Shown here piece by piece: positions 33,323 to 45,408 of a stretch of DNA of 49,634 nt. A program made the position numbers and the translations under genes. The notes beneath the pieces were generated by a model, which did no database searches, was not told the DNA's origin, and worked only from the letters and a program-made list of their open reading frames with translations. Numbering within the stretch: position 1 is the first letter of the stretch; each line of letters starts with the position of its first letter. This DNA is from an uncultured Fidelibacterota bacterium (GTDB taxonomy: Bacteria; Fidelibacterota; Marinisomatia; Marinisomatales; UBA1611): contig CACLYL010000004.1 in assembly GCA_902611135.1 (NCBI GenBank), positions 1 through 49,634 on the forward strand, written 5' to 3'.

Positions 33323-35137
33323 ATGAAATTAAATTCAATATTAGCAACAGATTGTGGCAGTACTACAACAAAGGCAATTTTGATTCAAAGAATTGATGGT
33401 GAGTTTAGGCTAACCCATAGAGGTGAGGCTCCCACTACTGTTGAAGCACCCTTTGAAGATGTGACCCGAGGAGTTTTAAATGCTGTGATGGAGATCGAAG
33501 AATTGGCCTCAAAAAAAATCCTTAATGGGAACAAAATTTTATCGCCACAAAAAGATAATGAAGGAGTTGATATCTTTATATCAACAAGCTCCGCTGGAGG
33601 AGGGCTTCAAATGATGGTTGCGGGAGTAGTTAAATCTATGTCAGGCGAGAGTGCAGAAAGAGCAGCATTAGGAGCAGGTTCAATTGTTATGGATGTGATG
33701 GCCTCAAATGATGGTAGGCTTGGCCATGAAAAAATTAAAAGAATACGAGATTTAAGACCTGATATGATTTTATTATCTGGAGGGATAGATGGAGGGACGA
33801 TTTCTCATGTAGTTGAACTTGCAGAAGTTCTCTCTGCTGCAAATCCGCAACCAAGACTGGGTCAAAGTTATAAATTACCAGTTATTTATGCCGGAAATAA
33901 AAAAGCTAGAAATCAAATTAAAAAGGCTTTAGGGGACAAAGTAGATTTAGATATTGTAGATAATATCCGCCCTGTTTTAGAGCAGGAAAACCTCGAACCA
34001 TCGCGTGATAAAATCCATGATCTTTTTATGGAACATGTTATGCAACAAGCGCCTGGATATAAAAAGTTAATGACATGGACGGATGCTCCAATCATGCCAA
34101 CTCCAGGTGCGGTTGGTTTTTTAATTGAAATGATAGCAGAAAAGGAAAATATATCTGTGGTAGGTGTTGATATTGGCGGAGCAACAACAGATATTTTTTC
34201 AGTATTTCAAAAAAAGTTTAATCGAACAGTAAGTGCAAACTTGGGCATGAGTTATTCTATTTGCAATGTATTAGCTGAAGCGGGTTTGGATAATGTTTTA
34301 AAATGGGTGCCATTTGATATTGACCGACAAGAGTTAACAAATCGTATTGGAAACAAAATGATTCGTCCCACAACGGTTCCTCAATCTCTAGAGGAACTTT
34401 TTATCGAACAAGCTATTGCAAGAGAAGCACTTCGTTTATCATTTAAACAACATAAAGAATTTGCAGTTGGATTAAAAGGCGTTCAAAAGAAAAGAACTAT
34501 ATCAGATGCATTTGATCAATCTAGCTCGGGTGAATCTCTGGTCAATATGATGGATTTAGATCTTCTTGTTGGATCTGGAGGAGTTTTAAGTCATGCTCCG
34601 AGAAGAGAGCAGTCAGCAAAAATGTTGATAGATTCGTTTATGCCAGAAGGCATAACTCAGCTTGCAGTTGACTCAATATTTATGATGCCACAATTAGGTG
34701 TTCTTGCTAATATTGATAAAAAAGATATAAGCGATGAGGCAAGAAATGCTGCTCTGGAGGTTTTTCATAAAGATTGTCTTATCAGGTTAGGCACTTGTAT
34801 TACACCAATTGGTAAAGTAAAAGACAATTCAATAGTATTAAAAGCGAGCATTATATTTCCAAATGGAGAAAAAGTACTGAAAGAGATTAAAAAAAATGAA
34901 TTAATCCGTATTGAGGCTAAATTTGAACCATTGGACGCTGAACTTACACCCCATAAAAGTATGGATATTGGAGCAGGAAAAGGTGAAACAATAAAAACTA
35001 AAATTTTCGGAGGGGTAGTTGGATTAATTTTTGATGGTAGAGAAAGGCCCATTACACTACCCTCAAATAAGGAAAAGAGATTATCTCTTCTAAAAGGTTG
35101 GTCTGATGCCCTCAATGAATATCCAAAAAAGAGTTAG
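33323..35137 (+). CDS. MutL/GlmL family actin-fold ATPase-like protein
   Basis: Phosphate-1 TDCGSTTTKAILIQR, phosphate-2 VVGVDIGGATTDIFSVF, SAGGGLQMMVAGVVKSMS, RPDMILLSGGIDGGT. Confidence 0.85.
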   Translation: MKLNSILATDCGSTTTKAILIQRIDGEFRLTHRGEAPTTVEAPFEDVTRGVLNAVMEIEELASKKILNGNKILSPQKDNEGVDIFISTSSAGGGLQMMVAGVVKSMSGESAERAALGAGSIVMDVMASNDGRLGHEKIKRIRDLRPDMILLSGGIDGGTISHVVELAEVLSAANPQPRLGQSYKLPVIYAGNKKARNQIKKALGDKVDLDIVDNIRPVLEQENLEPSRDKIHDLFMEHVMQQAPGYKKLMTWTDAPIMPTPGAVGFLIEMIAEKENISVVGVDIGGATTDIFSVFQKKFNRTVSANLGMSYSICNVLAEAGLDNVLKWVPFDIDRQELTNRIGNKMIRPTTVPQSLEELFIEQAIAREALRLSFKQHKEFAVGLKGVQKKRTISDAFDQSSSGESLVNMMDLDLLVGSGGVLSHAPRREQSAKMLIDSFMPEGITQLAVDSIFMMPQLGVLANIDKKDISDEARNAALEVFHKDCLIRLGTCITPIGKVKDNSIVLKASIIFPNGEKVLKEIKKNELIRIEAKFEPLDAELTPHKSMDIGAGKGETIKTKIFGGVVGLIFDGRERPITLPSNKEKRLSLLKGWSDALNEYPKKS

Positions 35138-35140
35138 ACT

Positions 35141-36265
35141 ATGGCACATTCATACACACCAGGATTGAAAGTTTTAAAATCATCCATAATTGATAAAAAC
35201 CGTAGATTACCAATAAAGGGCGAAGTAAGAAAAAAAGTTGGAGATAGTGTATCACCTGATGATATTGTAGCTAAAACAAATCTTCCAGGTAATGTTCAAA
35301 TAATCAAAGTGGCTAGTCAATTGAATATTGGTCCTGCTGATATTCTTGAAGCTTTAAAGGTGAGTGAGGGAGAGCAAATCAAAAAGGGTCAGCTATTAGC
35401 ACAAACTGGAGGTTTATTTGGATTATTTAAATCTGAAATATTTAGTCCAATTGATGGAACAATAGAATCTATTTCAGATGTAACAGGTCAAATTATAATG
35501 CGTGAAGCGCCCATTCCTGTGGAAATAGATGCCTATACTTCCGGAATTGTAAGGGATATAATTCCTGAAGAGGGCGTTATTATTGAAACAAAGGCAGCTT
35601 TTATCCAAGGTATTTTTGGAATTGGTGGCGAAGCTCGAGGGATTTTAGAAATTATTGTTCAAGATAGGAACGATGAAATTACACCCGAAATGCTAAACAG
35701 CTCTCAAAAAGGAAAAGTTATAGTAGGCGGAGGATTTATTGGTTTGGAAGCATTTAAAAAAGCAATTTCTTTAAATATATCAGGTATTGTAATAGGTGGT
35801 TTTAATTATTATGACCTCAAAGAAATTTTAGGTTACAACTTAGGCGTTGCAATAACTGGATCAGAAGATATTAATACGTCACTTATAGTTACTGAGGGAT
35901 ATGGACATATAAAAATGAGTAGGGGAACATTTAGTCTTTTAAAAGAAAATGAAAATAATTTTTGTTCTATTAATGGAGCAACTCAAATTAGAGCAGGTGT
36001 CATAAGACCAGAAATTGTCATACCAGTAAAAGAAGATAGCTTAAAATCAGTCAAAGAAAGTAAAATTGGTAAAGGTATAGTGATAGGTAGTTTGGTTCGA
36101 GTGATAAGAGCGCCTTTTTTTGGATTAATGGGTAAAGTGACTGAATTACCATCCAAGCTACAAAAAATGGAATCTGAAACTTTGGTTCGAGTTGCTAAAA
36201 TTAATGTTGACGATCAAGATATAATAATTCCAAGATCTAATTTAGAAATGGTAGAAACAGATTGA
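35141..36265 (+). CDS. Protein with lipoyl/biotinyl-like hammerhead domain; cluster component
   Basis: VSEGEQIKKGQLLAQTGGLFGLFKSEIFSPIDGTIESISDVTGQIIMREAP; starts 3 nt after the MutL-like gene. Confidence 0.7.
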   Translation: MAHSYTPGLKVLKSSIIDKNRRLPIKGEVRKKVGDSVSPDDIVAKTNLPGNVQIIKVASQLNIGPADILEALKVSEGEQIKKGQLLAQTGGLFGLFKSEIFSPIDGTIESISDVTGQIIMREAPIPVEIDAYTSGIVRDIIPEEGVIIETKAAFIQGIFGIGGEARGILEIIVQDRNDEITPEMLNSSQKGKVIVGGGFIGLEAFKKAISLNISGIVIGGFNYYDLKEILGYNLGVAITGSEDINTSLIVTEGYGHIKMSRGTFSLLKENENNFCSINGATQIRAGVIRPEIVIPVKEDSLKSVKESKIGKGIVIGSLVRVIRAPFFGLMGKVTELPSKLQKMESETLVRVAKINVDDQDIIIPRSNLEMVETD

Positions 36266-36316
36266 TAGATATTTTCCTTTCCTGAGGTTTTAATTTTAAT
36301 TAAGATTTAGTGTAGA

Positions 36317-36634
36317 ATGAAAAAAGATAATTCACAATCACATATAATAGAGCATAGTGATAATGTATTTATTGATCGTATTTCAAATAAAATATATGAT
36401 TCAGGCCTTATCACACCAGCTATTTTCTTCCTTGAGATGACAAAGCCTATCTCTCTTTTGGGAAGTCACTTCCTTATATTTTTGGGACCCGTGGTAAATG
36501 CATTTATCCAGTCAGATGATTATTATCGAGCAGCCCAAGTTTTTGAAGATTCTAAAAATGTAGAGTTATTGATTCAGAAACTAGAAACATTAGAATTAAA
36601 AAATCATAAGAAGAGAGAAGCAATTGAAAGATAA
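36317..36634 (+). CDS. Small hypothetical protein, possibly membrane-associated; cluster component
   Basis: 105 aa; hydrophobic SLLGSHFLIFLGPVVNAFIQ; overlaps the next ORF by 11 nt. Confidence 0.7.
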   Translation: MKKDNSQSHIIEHSDNVFIDRISNKIYDSGLITPAIFFLEMTKPISLLGSHFLIFLGPVVNAFIQSDDYYRAAQVFEDSKNVELLIQKLETLELKNHKKREAIER

Positions 36635-37496
36635 GAATTTTATTGTCTCATCAATAATTATTTTTTTTGCTTTCACCTATCTACAGCTATTTAAGCCAGA
36701 TCTTTACATTGATGAAAGGGGCTTGCTCCTTTTTTTAATCTTGCTTTTTGGTGGAATACTACAATACTCTACTAGACATGCAATTAGAGGTGGTGATATT
36801 TTTTTAAGGACGATACCGGGAGTAAAAGCAGTTGAAGAGGCAGTAGGAAGATCTACTGAAATGGGTAAACCTGTCCTTTATGTTCCTGGAATTCAAGACA
36901 TGGATCAAGTAGAAACTGTTGCTGGAGTAGTTATTCTTGGACATGTATCAAAAATGACCGCCAGATATGAAACACCCCTGAATGTTCCTGTTGCAAGATC
37001 AATTGTATTAAAAGCCGCACAAGAGGCCTGCAAAGAATCATATTTAATTGAAGGAAAATCAGATATATATAATGAAAATATGGTTCATTATCTCACTGAT
37101 GATCAATTTGCCTATGCCGCAGGTGTAAATGGTATCATGAATAGAGAGAAACCAGCTGCATGTTTGTACATGGGTAAATTTTATGCTGAATCACTTTTAC
37201 TTGCAGAAACAGGAAATTCAATCGGAGCTATTCAAATTGCAGGTACTGCTTCACAATCTCAAATCCCCTTTTTTGTTACAGCCTGTGACTATACTCTTAT
37301 TGGAGAAGAATTTTTTGCTGCCAGTGCATATTTATCACAAAAGCCCGAACTATTAGGAATTGTAAAGGGTCAAGACTATATCAAACTTTGCATAATCATT
37401 ATGATAGTTGGCGGTGTGCTCCTAAGATTTTTGTATGATATAGATCTAATCGATTTTAATGTTCTAGATTTTTTGACTGTTTCAAACTTGAAATAA
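36624..37496 (+). CDS. Membrane-anchored conserved protein (DUF6754-like); cluster component
   Basis: Two N-terminal TM, soluble core QYSTRHAIRGGDIFLRTIPGVKAVEEAVGRSTEMGKPVLYVPG...VAGVVILGHV...GAIQIAGTASQSQIPFFVTACDYTLIGEE, C-terminal TM. Confidence 0.7.
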   Translation: MKDKNFIVSSIIIFFAFTYLQLFKPDLYIDERGLLLFLILLFGGILQYSTRHAIRGGDIFLRTIPGVKAVEEAVGRSTEMGKPVLYVPGIQDMDQVETVAGVVILGHVSKMTARYETPLNVPVARSIVLKAAQEACKESYLIEGKSDIYNENMVHYLTDDQFAYAAGVNGIMNREKPAACLYMGKFYAESLLLAETGNSIGAIQIAGTASQSQIPFFVTACDYTLIGEEFFAASAYLSQKPELLGIVKGQDYIKLCIIIMIVGGVLLRFLYDIDLIDFNVLDFLTVSNLK

Positions 37497-37497
37497 T

Positions 37498-38316
37498 ATG
37501 ATGCTAAAAAGACAAGTTCCCATTTTCATCGTGATGTTTTTTGGATTCCTAACATTATTTGGATGGTTTATTGATCAAAATCAAGTTAAAGATTTCGTTG
37601 ATATTCATGGCTTACAGTGGTACAGTATAATTTCTACATTTGCCATCTTCCTTGGAATTATTACACTAATTAAGCTTCAACTAATAAAAATACTAAAAAA
37701 ACAAAAAGGTTGGCAGTATTCAGTCGTCGCTATTTTGGGCGTTCTATTTTCGTTTACAGCTGGGTTTATTTACAAAGGAAATCCCGATGTAGAATGGGGA
37801 GGACATGTTATAGAAAAAGGAACTCTGTTCAAATGGATTTTCGAGTTCATGTTTACCCCTTTATCAGCTACTATGTTTGCATTACTTGCATTCTTTGTCG
37901 CTTCTGCTTCATATAGAGCATTTAGAATTAGAAATTTTGAAGCAACATTATTACTTATCTCTGGTATGATTATTATGATAGGTAGGGTACCAATTGGAAG
38001 TTCAATTTCAAGCTGGTTTGTCCTTTATCTATTGGTGTTTGTTATTTCGATAATCATAAATAGCATATTTAAAAATAAAACCTATACCATGATTTCTTTT
38101 TCATCAGGATTAATCATCGTTAGTTTGCTGGGTTTTTACATGGGCTGGCCTTTAGATCGTCCAGGTATTTTCTACCTTCCTACATTACAAGAATGGATTT
38201 ATAAATATCCAAATGTTGCAGGTGCCAGGTCAATATCTATTGGTATAGGTCTAGGAATATTTGCAACGTCAATTCGATATATATTAGGATTAGAAAAATC
38301 CTACATTGGAGAATAG
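37498..38316 (+). CDS. Multi-pass membrane protein; cluster component
   Basis: 272 aa, about 7-8 hydrophobic helices. Confidence 0.75.
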   Translation: MMLKRQVPIFIVMFFGFLTLFGWFIDQNQVKDFVDIHGLQWYSIISTFAIFLGIITLIKLQLIKILKKQKGWQYSVVAILGVLFSFTAGFIYKGNPDVEWGGHVIEKGTLFKWIFEFMFTPLSATMFALLAFFVASASYRAFRIRNFEATLLLISGMIIMIGRVPIGSSISSWFVLYLLVFVISIIINSIFKNKTYTMISFSSGLIIVSLLGFYMGWPLDRPGIFYLPTLQEWIYKYPNVAGARSISIGIGLGIFATSIRYILGLEKSYIGE

Positions 38317-38318
38317 GC

Positions 38319-39161
38319 ATGAAGTCTGTTTTAAATTTAATACTAAAACTTAGTAGCATAGATAGAAGATGGATTTTTTTAATTATAGGCTTATCTGTTT
38401 TCCTTCCTCTATTTTTTCCTTTAGGACTTCCAATAAGAGCAACGGATACCACCCAAATTGTATATGATGCCTTTGATTCTTTAGATCCAAATTCGAAAGT
38501 ACTCCTATCTTGTGAGTATGGTCCCAGCACAAAGCCTGAAATACACCCTATGGTTATTGCAGTATTGCATCAACTTTTTAGAAATAATCACAAAGTTTAT
38601 GTGAGCTGCTTGTGGCCTGACGGTCAATTTATGGCAGATGAGGCTCTAAGAAAAGTGGCACCGTTGTATGATAAGACATATGGAGAAGATTATGTAATTT
38701 TAGGTTATAAACCTGGAAATGAAGCAGTTATAAAAGGGATGGTTAGGGATCTAAGGGCAATATTTAGCACTGATGTTAAAGGTAAGAAGGTTGAGGATAT
38801 CCCAATGATGAATAAAATTTTTAAGTTCGAAGACTTTGATTTTTTATTTTCTGCCTCTGCAGGATTTCCTGGATCAATAGAGTGGATGCAATATGCTACA
38901 GATAACACCGATGTAAAAATGAGTACTGGAACTACTTCAATCATGGTAAATGATATAATGCCCTTTGTTGTATCTAAACAAATACAAGGGATACTGGCGG
39001 GTATGCCAGGTGCTGCTGAGTATGAGACCTTAGTTGGTGAACCTGGTATAGGGACTAGTGGTATGGATGCACAGTCTCTTGCTCATTTAGTTATAGTATT
39101 ATTTATTATTTTTGGAAACATTGGCTATTTTATTGAAAGAAATAAAAGAAAAAGATACTAG
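38319..39161 (+). CDS. Membrane-anchored protein with large soluble domain; cluster component
   Basis: N-terminal TM (RRWIFLIIGLSVFLPLFFPLG), C-terminal TM; VLLSCEYGPSTKPEIHPMVIAVLHQLF...KMSTGTTSIMVNDIMPF...GILAGMPGAAEYE. Confidence 0.75.
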   Translation: MKSVLNLILKLSSIDRRWIFLIIGLSVFLPLFFPLGLPIRATDTTQIVYDAFDSLDPNSKVLLSCEYGPSTKPEIHPMVIAVLHQLFRNNHKVYVSCLWPDGQFMADEALRKVAPLYDKTYGEDYVILGYKPGNEAVIKGMVRDLRAIFSTDVKGKKVEDIPMMNKIFKFEDFDFLFSASAGFPGSIEWMQYATDNTDVKMSTGTTSIMVNDIMPFVVSKQIQGILAGMPGAAEYETLVGEPGIGTSGMDAQSLAHLVIVLFIIFGNIGYFIERNKRKRY

Positions 39162-39172
39162 GGATTAAATTA

Positions 39173-40000
39173 ATGATTTTTAATGATATTTTTGGAGCAT
39201 GGGTTGCTGTTTTTTTTACTTTAGCAATATTTTCTTTTCTTTATAAAGACAATCCTTTTTATAAGATAGCCGAACATGCTTACATTGGTATTTCAGCAGG
39301 ATATTGGTTATCAATTGGTTTCTGGACGATAATACAGCCAAATTTATTAGGCAGATTGTGGCCTTCAAAAGAATATTCAGAAGAAAGTTTTTGGTATTCT
39401 ATTTATGATTTTCTTAGCTCCATAATTCCTTCAATATTTCCAAACGGGGGTATAGATAAAGGTCATAATATGGATCTTACCTATTTAATTCCGCTTGTTC
39501 TAGGTATTATGATGATTTTAAGTATTTTTAAACAATTTAATTGGATGGCTCGTTGGGGAATTGCATATACTGTTGCAATTGCTGCAGGATTGAGAGCATA
39601 TGGCTACTTAAATTCGTATATTTTGGGCCAAATAAAAGGTACTATTGTGCCATTGGCAAATACAGAGTACCCTATTTTCCATATTTCAGAACCCTCTTTA
39701 TTAAATAATTTGTTGATATTACTCGGTACGGTCACTGGACTTTTATACTTCTTCTTTTCTAGAGAACAATCCGGTTCATTTGGTAAAATAACCCGGTTAG
39801 GAATTTACTTCTTAATGATTTCTTTTGGTGCATCCTTCGGCTTTGCTGTTATGGGTAGAATATCACTTTTAATTGGAAGATTTGTTTCGCTTATCGACTA
39901 TTCAAGCTCTCAATATCATCATGCTACATTGTGGGTTTTTTTTCTAATGATTATATTATTGATTTATTCTGCAATTAACGATCGATCTACATCCAGTTAA
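39173..40000 (+). CDS. Multi-pass membrane protein; cluster component
   Basis: 275 aa, about 7-8 hydrophobic helices. Confidence 0.75.
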   Translation: MIFNDIFGAWVAVFFTLAIFSFLYKDNPFYKIAEHAYIGISAGYWLSIGFWTIIQPNLLGRLWPSKEYSEESFWYSIYDFLSSIIPSIFPNGGIDKGHNMDLTYLIPLVLGIMMILSIFKQFNWMARWGIAYTVAIAAGLRAYGYLNSYILGQIKGTIVPLANTEYPIFHISEPSLLNNLLILLGTVTGLLYFFFSREQSGSFGKITRLGIYFLMISFGASFGFAVMGRISLLIGRFVSLIDYSSSQYHHATLWVFFLMIILLIYSAINDRSTSS

Positions 40001-41209: not shown

Positions 41210-41587
41210 TTAGGCTAATACTTGCTCAATATCGTCGCGAATTAGAACTAAAATAGCAGATTGCGATACAATAAGGTATTTCCTTTTTTCTAGCTCTATT
41301 TCAATGCTTGCTTTCGATAAAAATAAAACATAATCACCAACCTCAGCTTGAGTTGGTATATACTTTACATTGCTCTTTTTTTCTTTCCAAGGTTCATCAA
41401 ATGTAGAATCAGGGGATCCAAGGGGAATTCCAGGTCCAACCTCAACAACCACTCCACCGCGTACATCTTGTTTTTCTATAACGCTTGGAGGCAAATATAA
41501 CCCAGATGGAGACTTCTTTTCTCCGGTGTCAGGCCTAATTAAGATCCTGTCACCAACTACAATTATATTCTTCCCGTTATTTCTCAT
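41210..41587 (-). CDS. GroES-like co-chaperonin, extended/atypical; likely start ATG 41587
   Basis: VVGDRILIRPDTGEKKSPSGLYLPPSVIEKQDVRGGVVVEVGPG...EVGDYVLFLSKASIEIELEKRKYLIVSQSAILVLI. Confidence 0.75.
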   Translation of the reverse strand: MRNNGKNIIVVGDRILIRPDTGEKKSPSGLYLPPSVIEKQDVRGGVVVEVGPGIPLGSPDSTFDEPWKEKKSNVKYIPTQAEVGDYVLFLSKASIEIELEKRKYLIVSQSAILVLIRDDIEQVLA

Positions 41588-41591
41588 GCTA

Positions 41592-41628
41592 GAAAAAAGC
41601 AATAAGCCCTGAATTAACAGGGCTTATT
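41592..41628 (-). terminator. Strong hairpin with T tract on the minus strand
   Basis: AATAAGCCCTG-TTAATT-CAGGGCTTATT followed by GCTTTTTTC. Confidence 0.8.
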
Positions 41629-41691: not shown

Positions 41692-42258
41692 TTATTTAGT
41701 ATCTAATTCCTTATCCACTGCGGTTGGGACTTCCTTCTTTGGTTTGGAACCCCAGTAATTTACATTAGAATTCAATAAAAAATAAACATTATCATTGGTT
41801 CTGTAAACATCACTAGAATTATTTGCTCTTACATAGTTATGTTGATAATCTTGTCCTGAATTTCCAAATACATAGTGAACTAACTCTTTTTCTGAGTCAT
41901 CAAATAATTTTAAATGCTTGCCTAAAGAGTCATCTACGCCAAATTTTTCCCATTTAGACTCTTTATTTGTCACTTGAATCTCTTTTTCAACGACAATCAC
42001 TTTATCAAAAAACCTATCAAGCTGGTTTTCTTTGACTACAAGACTATCAGCCTGAACAATCGACCATGTAGAATCATTTTTGATTAATTCTAGTACTTTA
42101 TCTTTTTCTGAGATTTGAATTTTTGATATTAGATCAATATTCCCATCAAAAATTTTACCTGGTTTTATGCTATGTTCGCTTTGCAACCTTTGATTAATAA
42201 AAAATAAAATCAATATAACCAGTAATGCACCAAGTCCTATTTTTATGTTATTAGTCAT
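41692..42258 (-). CDS. DUF4340-type protein associated with Gld-like ABC system
   Basis: TM anchor then ISKIQISEKDKVLELIKNDSTWSIVQADSLVVKENQLDRFFDKV...KWEKFGVDDSLGKHLKLFD. Confidence 0.75.
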   Translation of the reverse strand: MTNNIKIGLGALLVILILFFINQRLQSEHSIKPGKIFDGNIDLISKIQISEKDKVLELIKNDSTWSIVQADSLVVKENQLDRFFDKVIVVEKEIQVTNKESKWEKFGVDDSLGKHLKLFDDSEKELVHYVFGNSGQDYQHNYVRANNSSDVYRTNDNVYFLLNSNVNYWGSKPKKEVPTAVDKELDTK

Positions 42259-43783
42259 ATATTTGCCTCAATATTTCTGCGTTTTGTTTTTGACCTCTCA
42301 ATCTCAGGAAGCCAAAGCCTACTATTAAAATAGATGGAAGCAACATATTTGCAAATTTCCAATTCCTTTTAGTCGAGTCATCCATCTCTTCAAGCGGCCT
42401 ACTTGTAATTTCTCTTGATCTCAAAGCAATTAATTCTTTGTCTCCGGCTAAATAATCAACAGCATTCATCACAAAAACTAAATTATCTTGAATAGACATT
42501 CCACCATCATCAGCAAAGAACTTTGAATCACTTACCAGTATAATTTCAGCACCAGTTGATAATTTAGATAGCGCTGATAATATTTTACCTTTTTGGCCTA
42601 ATATATTCAAAAAAGGATTTTGCTGAGGATCAGGACTTAGCATAAAATTACCTTCCATGATACCGCTATTATTGGATGAAGAAAAAAGAGATAAATTGTT
42701 TATTACCAAATCGTTTGATGTAGTATCAAGTTCAATTTCACTTGGAAAAAAGGTTAAAACTTGTTCTAAATCAGATACGAGAATCTCATCATTATTAAAG
42801 TTTTGAACAACCGGAAAGAAAGGATATTCCATTGGCCTATTCATAAGAAAAATTCCTCTTCTTTCCTGAACTTGTACACTACCACACTTTTTATCTAAAA
42901 CTAAATTTTTCTTAACAGTTAAACCATAATTCTGCAGTAGGGTAAAAATATCAGAATCGATTGGATTTGCTTGTTGTGTTTGTATATCTGTTGTAAGTCC
43001 ACTCTGCGTTATGAAAACTTTCTTCCCAAGATTTATGAAGGTTTCTAAATTAGTTTTAACTTCAGGTTCAAGTGAATCAGAAGCTGCGGTTAAAAGTAAT
43101 ACATCAATTTCAGGGGATATAGCGTTTTTTAAATCTAAAGTGGTAAATGAATAATGCTGATTTAACTGAGCCGACAGATTTTCGGTTTTTATTGGATTCT
43201 CTTTATCTAATTGGGCAATCCCTATAGTTTTTTTATCAATATCTATTAAGGACTTTATTTTAGTACTGATCATATATTCTAGCCCAGCAGTAGTTTGAAT
43301 AACTGGAATTACTTCCTTTTTATTTTCATAAAGTAAAACCATCCCTAGATAAACCTTTTTAATTTCAACTTTGTCATTTTCAATAACCTGCATTTGAACT
43401 GGTTGTATACCATCTTTTCTAGCCTGTTCCTCTAAATCTGTATCAGATTCAGGATTATGAAAGAAAAACCTAACTTCATCGGACCATGCGCCATATTCCT
43501 CAAGGATATCTTGTAAAAATCGTCTAGTGTTTCCTAATTCATTTGGAAGATTATCAGAGAAGTATACTTTCATCGTCAGAAGGTCATCTAAACTTTCAAC
43601 AATCTTTCTACTAGATGAAGATAATGAATACATACTATTGTCTGTTAAATCAAACCTTTTAAAAATATCTCTAGCAATTAGATTGAGGAGAACTAGACCA
43701 ACGACTAGTCCAACAGCGTAGAGGATAAATGAATTTTTATTTTTTGTTAGCATATCAACTCCATTTCCTAGATTCAAGAACAC
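42251..43783 (-). CDS. GldG-like ABC-type auxiliary protein
   Basis: FDLTDNSMYSLSSSSRKIVESLDDLLTMKVYFSDNLP...LLTAASDSLEPEVKTNLETFINLGKKVFITQ; C-terminal TM. Confidence 0.85.
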   Translation of the reverse strand: MFLNLGNGVDMLTKNKNSFILYAVGLVVGLVLLNLIARDIFKRFDLTDNSMYSLSSSSRKIVESLDDLLTMKVYFSDNLPNELGNTRRFLQDILEEYGAWSDEVRFFFHNPESDTDLEEQARKDGIQPVQMQVIENDKVEIKKVYLGMVLLYENKKEVIPVIQTTAGLEYMISTKIKSLIDIDKKTIGIAQLDKENPIKTENLSAQLNQHYSFTTLDLKNAISPEIDVLLLTAASDSLEPEVKTNLETFINLGKKVFITQSGLTTDIQTQQANPIDSDIFTLLQNYGLTVKKNLVLDKKCGSVQVQERRGIFLMNRPMEYPFFPVVQNFNNDEILVSDLEQVLTFFPSEIELDTTSNDLVINNLSLFSSSNNSGIMEGNFMLSPDPQQNPFLNILGQKGKILSALSKLSTGAEIILVSDSKFFADDGGMSIQDNLVFVMNAVDYLAGDKELIALRSREITSRPLEEMDDSTKRNWKFANMLLPSILIVGFGFLRLRGQKQNAEILRQIYD

Positions 43784-44468
43784 GAGTGGTCATAAATAGA
43801 AAAAATCCAATTATTGATCCAAAATAAATCAGATTCCGAGTATCAATTACACCTCTAGATATATTGCTGAGGTGAAACTCGGTACTCATGTACTGGACAA
43901 TACCTGCTAAAGATGCAGGAACAAAGTACAGTAACTTATCCATTAAAAAGAAAACAAGCACTATAGCTATTCCAACGATGAATGCAATCACCTGATTTTC
44001 TGTTAAACTGCTGGCAAAAACACCAATAGATGTGTAGACTCCAGCAACTAAAGCTAATCCCAAGTAACCTGTGAACACGGCACCATGATCAATTGTAGTT
44101 CCGAACTTTATGAGGGTAAAATAATGAATCACTGTTGAGAAAAGGGATATAATTATCAGAGTTAAACCCGCTAAATATTTTCCCAATACGATGTCTCTTT
44201 CTTTTATGGGGAGAGTACTGATAATTTCAATTGTACCGATTCCTTTTTCCCTTGATATTAGACCCATGGAGACTGCAGGTATGAAAAAAAGGTACACCAT
44301 AGGAACAATTCCAAACAAAGCTCGCATGTCTGATTGGTTATATAAAAAGAAGGTATTTGTGAAGAAATAGCCATTCACTAATGCAAAAATAACTAAAAAT
44401 ATATATGCCATTGGACTTGAAAAAAAAGAGCTCAATTCTTTCTTATAAATTGCGCGAATATTATGCAT
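43755..44468 (-). CDS. ABC-2 type permease, GldF-like
   Basis: IYKKELSSFFSSPMAYIFLVIFALVNGYFF...SMGLISREKGIGTIEIISTLPIKERDIVLGKYLAGL. Confidence 0.88.
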   Translation of the reverse strand: MHNIRAIYKKELSSFFSSPMAYIFLVIFALVNGYFFTNTFFLYNQSDMRALFGIVPMVYLFFIPAVSMGLISREKGIGTIEIISTLPIKERDIVLGKYLAGLTLIIISLFSTVIHYFTLIKFGTTIDHGAVFTGYLGLALVAGVYTSIGVFASSLTENQVIAFIVGIAIVLVFFLMDKLLYFVPASLAGIVQYMSTEFHLSNISRGVIDTRNLIYFGSIIGFFLFMTTRVLESRKWS

Positions 44469-45408
44469 CTTCAGGTCCTCCTTGTTTAGTTAAATTTCGA
44501 AAAATATCTTCTAAATTTCGTTTAGTACTGTTCATTTTTATTATTATCCACTTTTTTTCAACTGCATAATTGAATACGTCCTTTCTGGGATCTGATGTGT
44601 TCGCATATTCCAAAGAAACTTGGTGCCTTTTTTCATTTTCAGTTTGTGACTTTATTTTGATACTTGGAATATTTGCCTTCATATTCTTAATGTCATCTTT
44701 TTTAGCATTAAGTAATTCAAGTTCGAGTTGATTTAATCCTTTAGAATCTTTTATCAATTCATCACTCGTACCATCAGCAACAATCTCTCCATTATGAATG
44801 ATTACTATCCGATCGACAGTTGCCTGAATTTCTTGCAATATATGTGAGGACATCAAAACTAATTTTTCTTTCCCAAGTCTTTTGATTAGTTGCCGAATTT
44901 CAACAATTTGATTTGGATCTAACCCAGTTACAGGTTCATCAAGTATTAAAATTTTAGGATCATGAATCATTGAAGCTGCAAGCCCAATTCTTTGCTTATA
45001 ACCTTTAGAACAATTGCTTACAGTTTTATGCACAACTCCCTGTAAACCACATTGAGAAACAACCTTTTCAAGAGATTTATTAAATTTATGCCCTTGTATT
45101 CCTCTTACATCTGCATGAAATTTTAGATAATCAAAAACTTTCATTTCTCCATAAAGTGGATTCAATTCAGGTAAATAGCCAATCATTTTTTGAATTTCGA
45201 TACTGTGGTCGATTATATTTTTATTATCAACAAAAACATTCCCACTAGTAGGTGTAAGATATCCTGTGATCATTTTTAGTGTAGTACTTTTCCCAGCACC
45301 ATTAGCACCTAGAAAGCCTACAATCTGAGAATCTTCTAATTCAAATGATATAGACTTAACAGCCTTTACATCCCCATAATGTTTGGTTAAATTTTCAATT
45401 TTAATCAA
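44461..45408 (-). CDS. ABC transporter ATP-binding protein, GldA-like
   Basis: GFLGANGAGKSTTLKMITGYL Walker A; NCSKGYKQRIGLAASMIHDPKILILDEPVTGLDP. Confidence 0.93.
   Translation of the reverse strand: MIKIENLTKHYGDVKAVKSISFELEDSQIVGFLGANGAGKSTTLKMITGYLTPTSGNVFVDNKNIIDHSIEIQKMIGYLPELNPLYGEMKVFDYLKFHADVRGIQGHKFNKSLEKVVSQCGLQGVVHKTVSNCSKGYKQRIGLAASMIHDPKILILDEPVTGLDPNQIVEIRQLIKRLGKEKLVLMSSHILQEIQATVDRIVIIHNGEIVADGTSDELIKDSKGLNQLELELLNAKKDDIKNMKANIPSIKIKSQTENEKRHQVSLEYANTSDPRKDVFNYAVEKKWIIIKMNSTKRNLEDIFRNLTKQGGPEDA

Follow-up and report, generated by a model that had tools for sequence, protein, structure and literature searches.

A MutL-type ATPase and a DUF6754 membrane module form an undescribed, widely conserved seven-gene cluster in uncultured bacteria

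We analysed a stretch of 49,634 nucleotides (the window) from an uncultured Fidelibacterota bacterium (assembly GCA_902611135.1, contig CACLYL010000004.1), which is one entire contig of a genome that is 58% complete and 1.36 Mb in size. A preliminary description had drawn attention to seven same-strand genes at positions 33323-40000, with short gaps and one overlap, and this was confirmed by the coordinates and strand of the open reading frames (ORFs). All seven are co-directional and follow each other at successive distances of 3, 51, -11 (the overlap), 1, 2 and 11 nucleotides. According to phylogenetic trees, the nearest named relatives of the window's MutL, DUF6754 and p280 proteins are found in Marinimicrobia. 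The genes of this cassette are listed here, with lengths in amino acids (aa), transmembrane segments as TM and the evidence in brackets.

33323..35137, + strand: MutL-type ASKHA ATPase, 604 aa (PF13941, ATP motifs)
35141..36265, + strand: Bsh, barrel-sandwich hybrid (RnfC_N-like) with KOW motif, 374 aa (Pfam matches)
36317..36634, + strand: p105, small conserved protein without family, 105 aa (alignment of 44 homologues, gene order)
36624..37496, + strand: DUF6754 protein, 290 aa (PF20539, structure model, charge-based topology)
37498..38316, + strand: TM1, polytopic protein without family, 272 aa (alignment of 41 homologues, hydropathy)
38319..39161, + strand: p280, predicted TM/Rossmann-like domain/TM protein without family, 280 aa (structure model, topology, conserved residues)
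39173..40000, + strand: TM2, polytopic protein without family, 275 aa (alignment of 39 homologues, hydropathy)

The genomes in GTDB were scanned for DUF6754, which gave at least 561 confirmed loci, and gene order was studied in the best 80 of these. They belonged to Marinimicrobia, Eisenbacteria, Gemmatimonadota, Latescibacterota, WOR-3/Stahlbacteria, Zixibacteria, Fermentibacteria/Aegiribacteria, Riflebacteria, Planctomycetes and a bin labelled Methylomirabilis, although some bins may be mislabelled. As the seven families are found together again and again, in about ten phyla, the cluster is far from a chance arrangement, and the conservation of the neighbourhood that the preliminary description had proposed to check is present. 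All four membrane genes stood together in 70 of the 80 loci and all seven genes in 47, many of the incomplete loci being interrupted by contig ends. Flanks longer than 7 kb on each side were available for 39 loci; MutL-Bsh was truly missing locally in five of these (L057, L069, L081, L083, L089), while the apparent absence of p105 in L085 and of p280 in L087 and L094 came from overlaps in gene picking. MutL was found somewhere in the genome in all 30 DUF6754 genomes tested. No DUF6754 was detected on plasmids at E 1e-5. The whole set is kept in genomes of only 0.9-1.0 Mb (G046, G056), and the system is thus not only widespread and strongly conserved but also retained in very small genomes. The order MutL-Bsh-p105-DUF6754-TM1-p280-TM2 is found in Marinimicrobia, DUF6754-TM1-p280-TM2-p105-MutL-Bsh in Riflebacteria, and p105-MutL-Bsh-DUF6754-TM1-p280-TM2 in Latescibacterota, Aegiribacteria and Planctomycetes. 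Since their order is shuffled between phyla while the modules themselves persist, the set behaves as two modules, [p105-MutL-Bsh] and [DUF6754-TM1-p280-TM2].

The two modules are also linked across genomes. DUF6754 was present in 47 of 61 Marinimicrobia genomes (the window's own and 60 relatives); MutL and DUF6754 occurred together in 45 of the 61, were both absent from 11 and were discordant in 5 (Fisher p 6e-8, with genomes counted as independent and relatedness and contig breaks uncorrected). Four of the genomes with neither gene (G038, G053, G057, G058) are 91-97% complete. A cassette form in which MutL and Bsh are fused stands apart from other Marinimicrobia in the MutL, DUF6754 and p280 trees and groups with a Planctomycete sequence in each of the three (support 100/100, 99/98 and 100/100, respectively). 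As these trees show the same grouping, parts of both modules moved together from one phylum to another. In 13 genomes two to seven DUF6754 genes were accompanied by at most one system-type MutL each; this count excludes the Riflebacteria genome G064, in which the second DUF6754 gene is only distantly related. Additional MutL matches in the 13 genomes were a paralogous fused form or fragments, and where L078 and L089 carry membrane modules in tandem, these copies are old and diverged. Parts of the system are inherited, lost, transferred and duplicated as modules, and, as judged from these comparisons, the seven genes very probably form one system.

The first gene had been described as a MutL/GlmL-type actin-fold protein, and this assignment is firm: the product is a full-length PF13941 member (413 bits against a Pfam cut-off of 27). 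The phosphate and adenosine motifs DCGSTTTK, DIGGATTD and SGGV-SHAP vary hardly or not at all among 20 diverse homologues, and MutL is therefore probably an active ATPase; across phyla, MutL shares 59-81% identity with the window protein. The likeness to GlmL/MutL of glutamate (methylaspartate) mutase and to Or-4 of ornithine degradation lies in PF13941 and in the ASKHA ATP motifs. The system MutL is, however, about 130 aa longer than GlmL and carries a C-terminal extension that GlmL lacks. It also falls below the NCBIfam equivalog cut-off for GlmL (219.5 against 475 bits), the TIGR01319 GlmL-family cut-off (157.5 against 204 bits) and the Or-4 cut-off (213.4 against 600 bits). In the tree, system MutLs and Bsh-linked paralogues are split from GlmL/Or-4 by a long branch with support 100/99; the GlmL rows are themselves long branches, so that only the split is claimed and not the root. 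Unlike GlmL and Or-4, the system MutL always occurs with Bsh and, in this system, with the membrane module. In one WOR-3 chromosome (G071, record CP070664) MutL is divided into two parts that lie about 2.1 Mb from each other (L152 and L153), which may reflect rearrangement, a split gene or misassembly.

The second gene had been called lipoyl/biotinyl-like. According to the Pfam matches, barrel-sandwich hybrid (RnfC_N/HlyD type, with a KOW motif in the C-terminal part) is the better label, and the consensus of its homologues holds no canonical biotin or lipoate lysine motif. RnfC_N was matched by 16 of 39 Bsh homologues. The likeness to RnfC/NqrA covers Bsh residues ~74-129; Bsh does not match the remainder of those proteins, and Rnf/Nqr genes are absent from the seven-gene set. 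A single ORF of 999-1022 aa encodes a MutL-Bsh fusion in several Marinimicrobia families (L136-L140). The p105 gene adjoins MutL in several phyla. A second, diverged family of fused MutL-Bsh proteins (913-991 aa), with no membrane module nearby, was seen in L141:6322-9168, L142:3-2741, L143:3926-6898 and L144:5806-8724, and as split genes in L148:2963-5537; in L141 and L142 it adjoins histidine ammonia-lyase-like genes. A membrane protein of ~140-170 aa without Pfam family lies directly upstream of p105 (of MutL in L088) in nine loci (L057, L061, L062, L069, L075, L078, L087, L088, L094) and is a possible eighth component.

In the membrane module, hydropathy and topology prediction agreed with the earlier assignment of the 36624 and 38319 products as TM-anchored proteins with soluble cores and of the 37498 and 39173 products as polytopic. 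Gene 36624 is a clear member of DUF6754 (PF20539, E 2e-110, 368 bits against a cut-off of 27), a family without assigned function. Its predicted layout is two N-terminal TMs, an alpha/beta core and a C-terminal TM, with a predicted local distance difference test score (pLDDT) of 81 for the model. The core is predicted to be cytoplasmic, based on its positive flanks, and in other lineages DUF6754 proteins have an additional FN3-like domain on the predicted outer side. For p280 the model (pLDDT 94) has a Rossmann-like core between two TMs, and charge-based topology predicts this core to be periplasmic (N-in, core out, C-in). When conservation was mapped on the models, the conserved residues of p280 were located at strand C-ends, with only 1 of 185 shifts scoring as high, whereas for DUF6754 71 of 192 shifts were as high as observed. 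Strand C-ends are the usual place of the ligand or active site in Rossmann-like folds, and the invariant residues of p280 suggest a specific small ligand. Homology between DUF6754 and p280, or between TM1 and TM2, found no support. A distant DUF6754 protein (61 bits) with the TM-core-TM layout kept is encoded outside the cassette in Riflebacteria (L184:6214-6960); it adjoins a flavin reductase-like gene, and its context gave no functional hint.

The profile searches matched MutL, the domains of Bsh and DUF6754, and Pfam held no family for p105 or for genes 37498, 38319 and 39173. A PDB fold search with the DUF6754 and p280 models returned nothing at E <= 0.001, and the best that PDB sequence-profile searches yielded was an FN3-like match at E 0.05, the other matches being at chance level. 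None of the seven proteins matched the PADLOC anti-phage models, and among the PHROGs phage models there was only a weak partition-protein match to MutL (E 4e-4). In the open-access literature searched, also with GlmL and related terms, DUF6754 is not mentioned and the system is not described. No characterised complex was matched in this literature, the PDB or the profiles, and the suggestion of an undescribed membrane-associated multi-protein system thus held. To judge from these searches, the seven genes very probably encode an undescribed, widely conserved inner-membrane system whose components carry family names only (MutL, DUF6754).

Most likely, judging from the sequences, one ATPase unit in the cytoplasm is shared by exchangeable units of the inner membrane, which have a periplasmic ligand site. 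We propose this because the families recur, MutL and Bsh are fused in places, MutL and DUF6754 co-occur, the trees are congruent and one ATPase accompanies several membrane units; the TM anchors, the predicted periplasmic core of p280, the conservation at its strand ends and the envelope-transport neighbours described below point the same way. MutL-Bsh, probably together with p105, would be the cytoplasmic energy unit, and the membrane unit would consist of DUF6754 with its cytoplasmic alpha/beta domain, TM1, TM2, and p280 with its periplasmic Rossmann-like domain. ATP binding and hydrolysis by MutL may be relayed via Bsh/p105 to DUF6754 and so drive conformational cycling of a TM1/TM2 core, by which a ligand held on the periplasmic side by p280, or on the cytoplasmic side by DUF6754, would be moved or handed across the inner membrane. 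For such ATPase-driven movement or handover the chance seems to us slightly short of even.

In energy-coupling factor (ECF) transporters a common ATPase unit serves several substrate-binding membrane units. The likeness to the present system is one energy unit with several exchangeable membrane units per genome, as in the 13 genomes above; the membrane unit would likewise set specificity while an unrelated ATPase is shared. The difference is an ASKHA-fold instead of an ABC ATPase, and transport by the seven-gene system, suggested in the preliminary description, is presumed. No match to an ABC-type ATPase, EcfT or an S-component was found among the seven proteins with Pfam and NCBIfam. An ATPase related to a helper of B12 enzymes may have been taken over for interchangeable inner-membrane units. 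Apart from cytoskeletal and pilus systems, no ASKHA-fold ATPase is known to drive a dedicated membrane complex of several subunits. The wider proposal, a new class of primary active machine with a GlmL-lineage ASKHA ATPase, a barrel-sandwich relay and interchangeable units for different cargoes, is tentative and rather doubtful; if true, such machines would carry these cargoes across the envelopes of many uncultured phyla. The modular logic of one ATPase and many membrane units lets function be probed module by module.

Several points weigh against ATPase-driven ligand movement. TM1, TM2, DUF6754 and p280 have no fold or sequence match to any transporter, and both the contact between MutL and the membrane unit and the ATPase activity are predictions from the genes. 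The neighbouring genes differ between lineages and therefore disagree on one cargo. A chaperone would explain one ATPase for several membrane units as well, and the main rival builds on this: DUF6754, p280, TM1 and TM2 would make up an enzyme in the membrane whose substrate is a lipid-linked or envelope metabolite, and MutL-Bsh would be its ATP-dependent activase or reactivase chaperone, comparable to the EutA/DdrA-type proteins for B12 enzymes. The seven genes would still be one system, only not a transporter. The described members of MutL's family are enzyme accessory factors, the cores of p280 and DUF6754 are alpha/beta, and conservation at strand ends as in p280 is typical of active sites. 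On the other hand, two polytopic proteins without enzyme signature are always included, and none of the Pfam, NCBIfam and PDB fold searches brought up a catalytic motif that would point to a known family of enzymes. We consider this enzyme with its activase possible but unlikely.

The neighbours of the cassette vary between lineages, yet point to envelope transport and traffic. Riflebacteria have Wzy and Wzz nearby, with SBP5-OppD-OppF adjoining the cassette and a Wzy_C (O-antigen ligase) gene with TPR repeats upstream of SBP5. SLBB export proteins are neighbours in WOR-3, DUF4388 with ExbB/ExbD-type genes in Stahlbacteria and ExbD in Aegiribacteria, and a TonB-receptor-like protein lies near the cassette in L078 and its cluster. 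Different envelope machines as neighbours, the FN3-like outer domains on some DUF6754 proteins and the predicted domains on both sides of the membrane would suit a trans-envelope regulator or mechanical coupler that passes a signal or force between cytoplasm and periplasm on behalf of machines for polysaccharide export, TonB uptake or peptide uptake and moves no cargo itself. This seems distinctly improbable, as the neighbours are lineage-specific and not obligate, and the ligand-site-like residues of p280 speak for a specific small ligand.

A closer tie to one neighbour was also considered. In eight Marinimicrobia loci (L026, L027, L032, L036, L048, L052, L055, L059) the cassette lies inside an Opp4-like operon for an oligopeptide ABC transporter, in the order SBP5-OppB-OppC-[seven genes]-OppD or other ABC ATPase. 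Together with the Riflebacteria arrangement, this could mean that the seven proteins assist a peptide ABC importer of the Opp type as accessory subunits. Seven genomes that are 91-98% complete (G010, G039, G044, G046, G050, G055, G056), including the two of 0.9-1.0 Mb, keep the system without any SBP5 gene, and in the window's own genome the SBP5 genes are located on other contigs. The Opp link is thus not obligate, and a role as importer accessory is largely contradicted and very unlikely.

The preliminary description had noted that the window holds no B12-dependent mutase subunit and had taken the ATPase to be independent of glutamate mutase, and both statements stand. Reference GlmL loci have the order glmS-glmL-mutE, while neither glmS nor mutE adjoins the window's MutL. 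In the profile search MutE (PF06368) exceeded the cut-off in none of the 61 Marinimicrobia genomes, the window's own being 58% complete. Of 30 further genomes that carry the system, 29 likewise had no MutE above the cut-off. The exception is the Riflebacteria genome G064, in which MutE adjoins a separate 493-aa GlmL of its own on contig C9 and the 620-aa system MutL lies on C4. One weak MutE match in the genome of the window proved to be methylmalonyl-CoA mutase. This enzyme is encoded in all 61 Marinimicrobia genomes, including four near-complete ones without MutL, and so does not need the system MutL. In a further reading MutL would reactivate glutamate mutase or some other B12-dependent mutase and would have the membrane genes only as neighbours. 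This would agree with the PF13941 membership of MutL and the ubiquity of methylmalonyl-CoA mutase, but is the least probable reading, given the missing MutE, the MutL-less genomes, the scores below the GlmL cut-offs and the separate clade. The role in glutamate mutase was rejected, and on the sequence evidence the system MutL is not a helper of that enzyme. Databases may nevertheless call this ATPase 'glutamate mutase L', a label that would lead metabolic reconstructions for these phyla astray.

Some further genes were observed near the cassette. L-piperidine-6-carboxylate dehydrogenase and L-lysine 6-transaminase, both above the NCBIfam equivalog cut-offs, are encoded in L059:14575-17456, and this lysine degradation pair also lies downstream of the cassette in clusters c9/c11, in 20-22 Marinimicrobia loci; this is possibly phylum-wide synteny only. 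In the window, a lone GroES/Cpn10-like ORF of 130 aa (41210-41602, - strand; named by eye) contains an apparent insertion and has no groEL adjoining. It is followed at 41692-45408 (- strand) by genes, likewise named by eye, for an ABC ATPase, an ABC-2 permease, a GldG-like auxiliary and a DUF4340-like protein, a set that resembles gliding-type ABC transporter genes.

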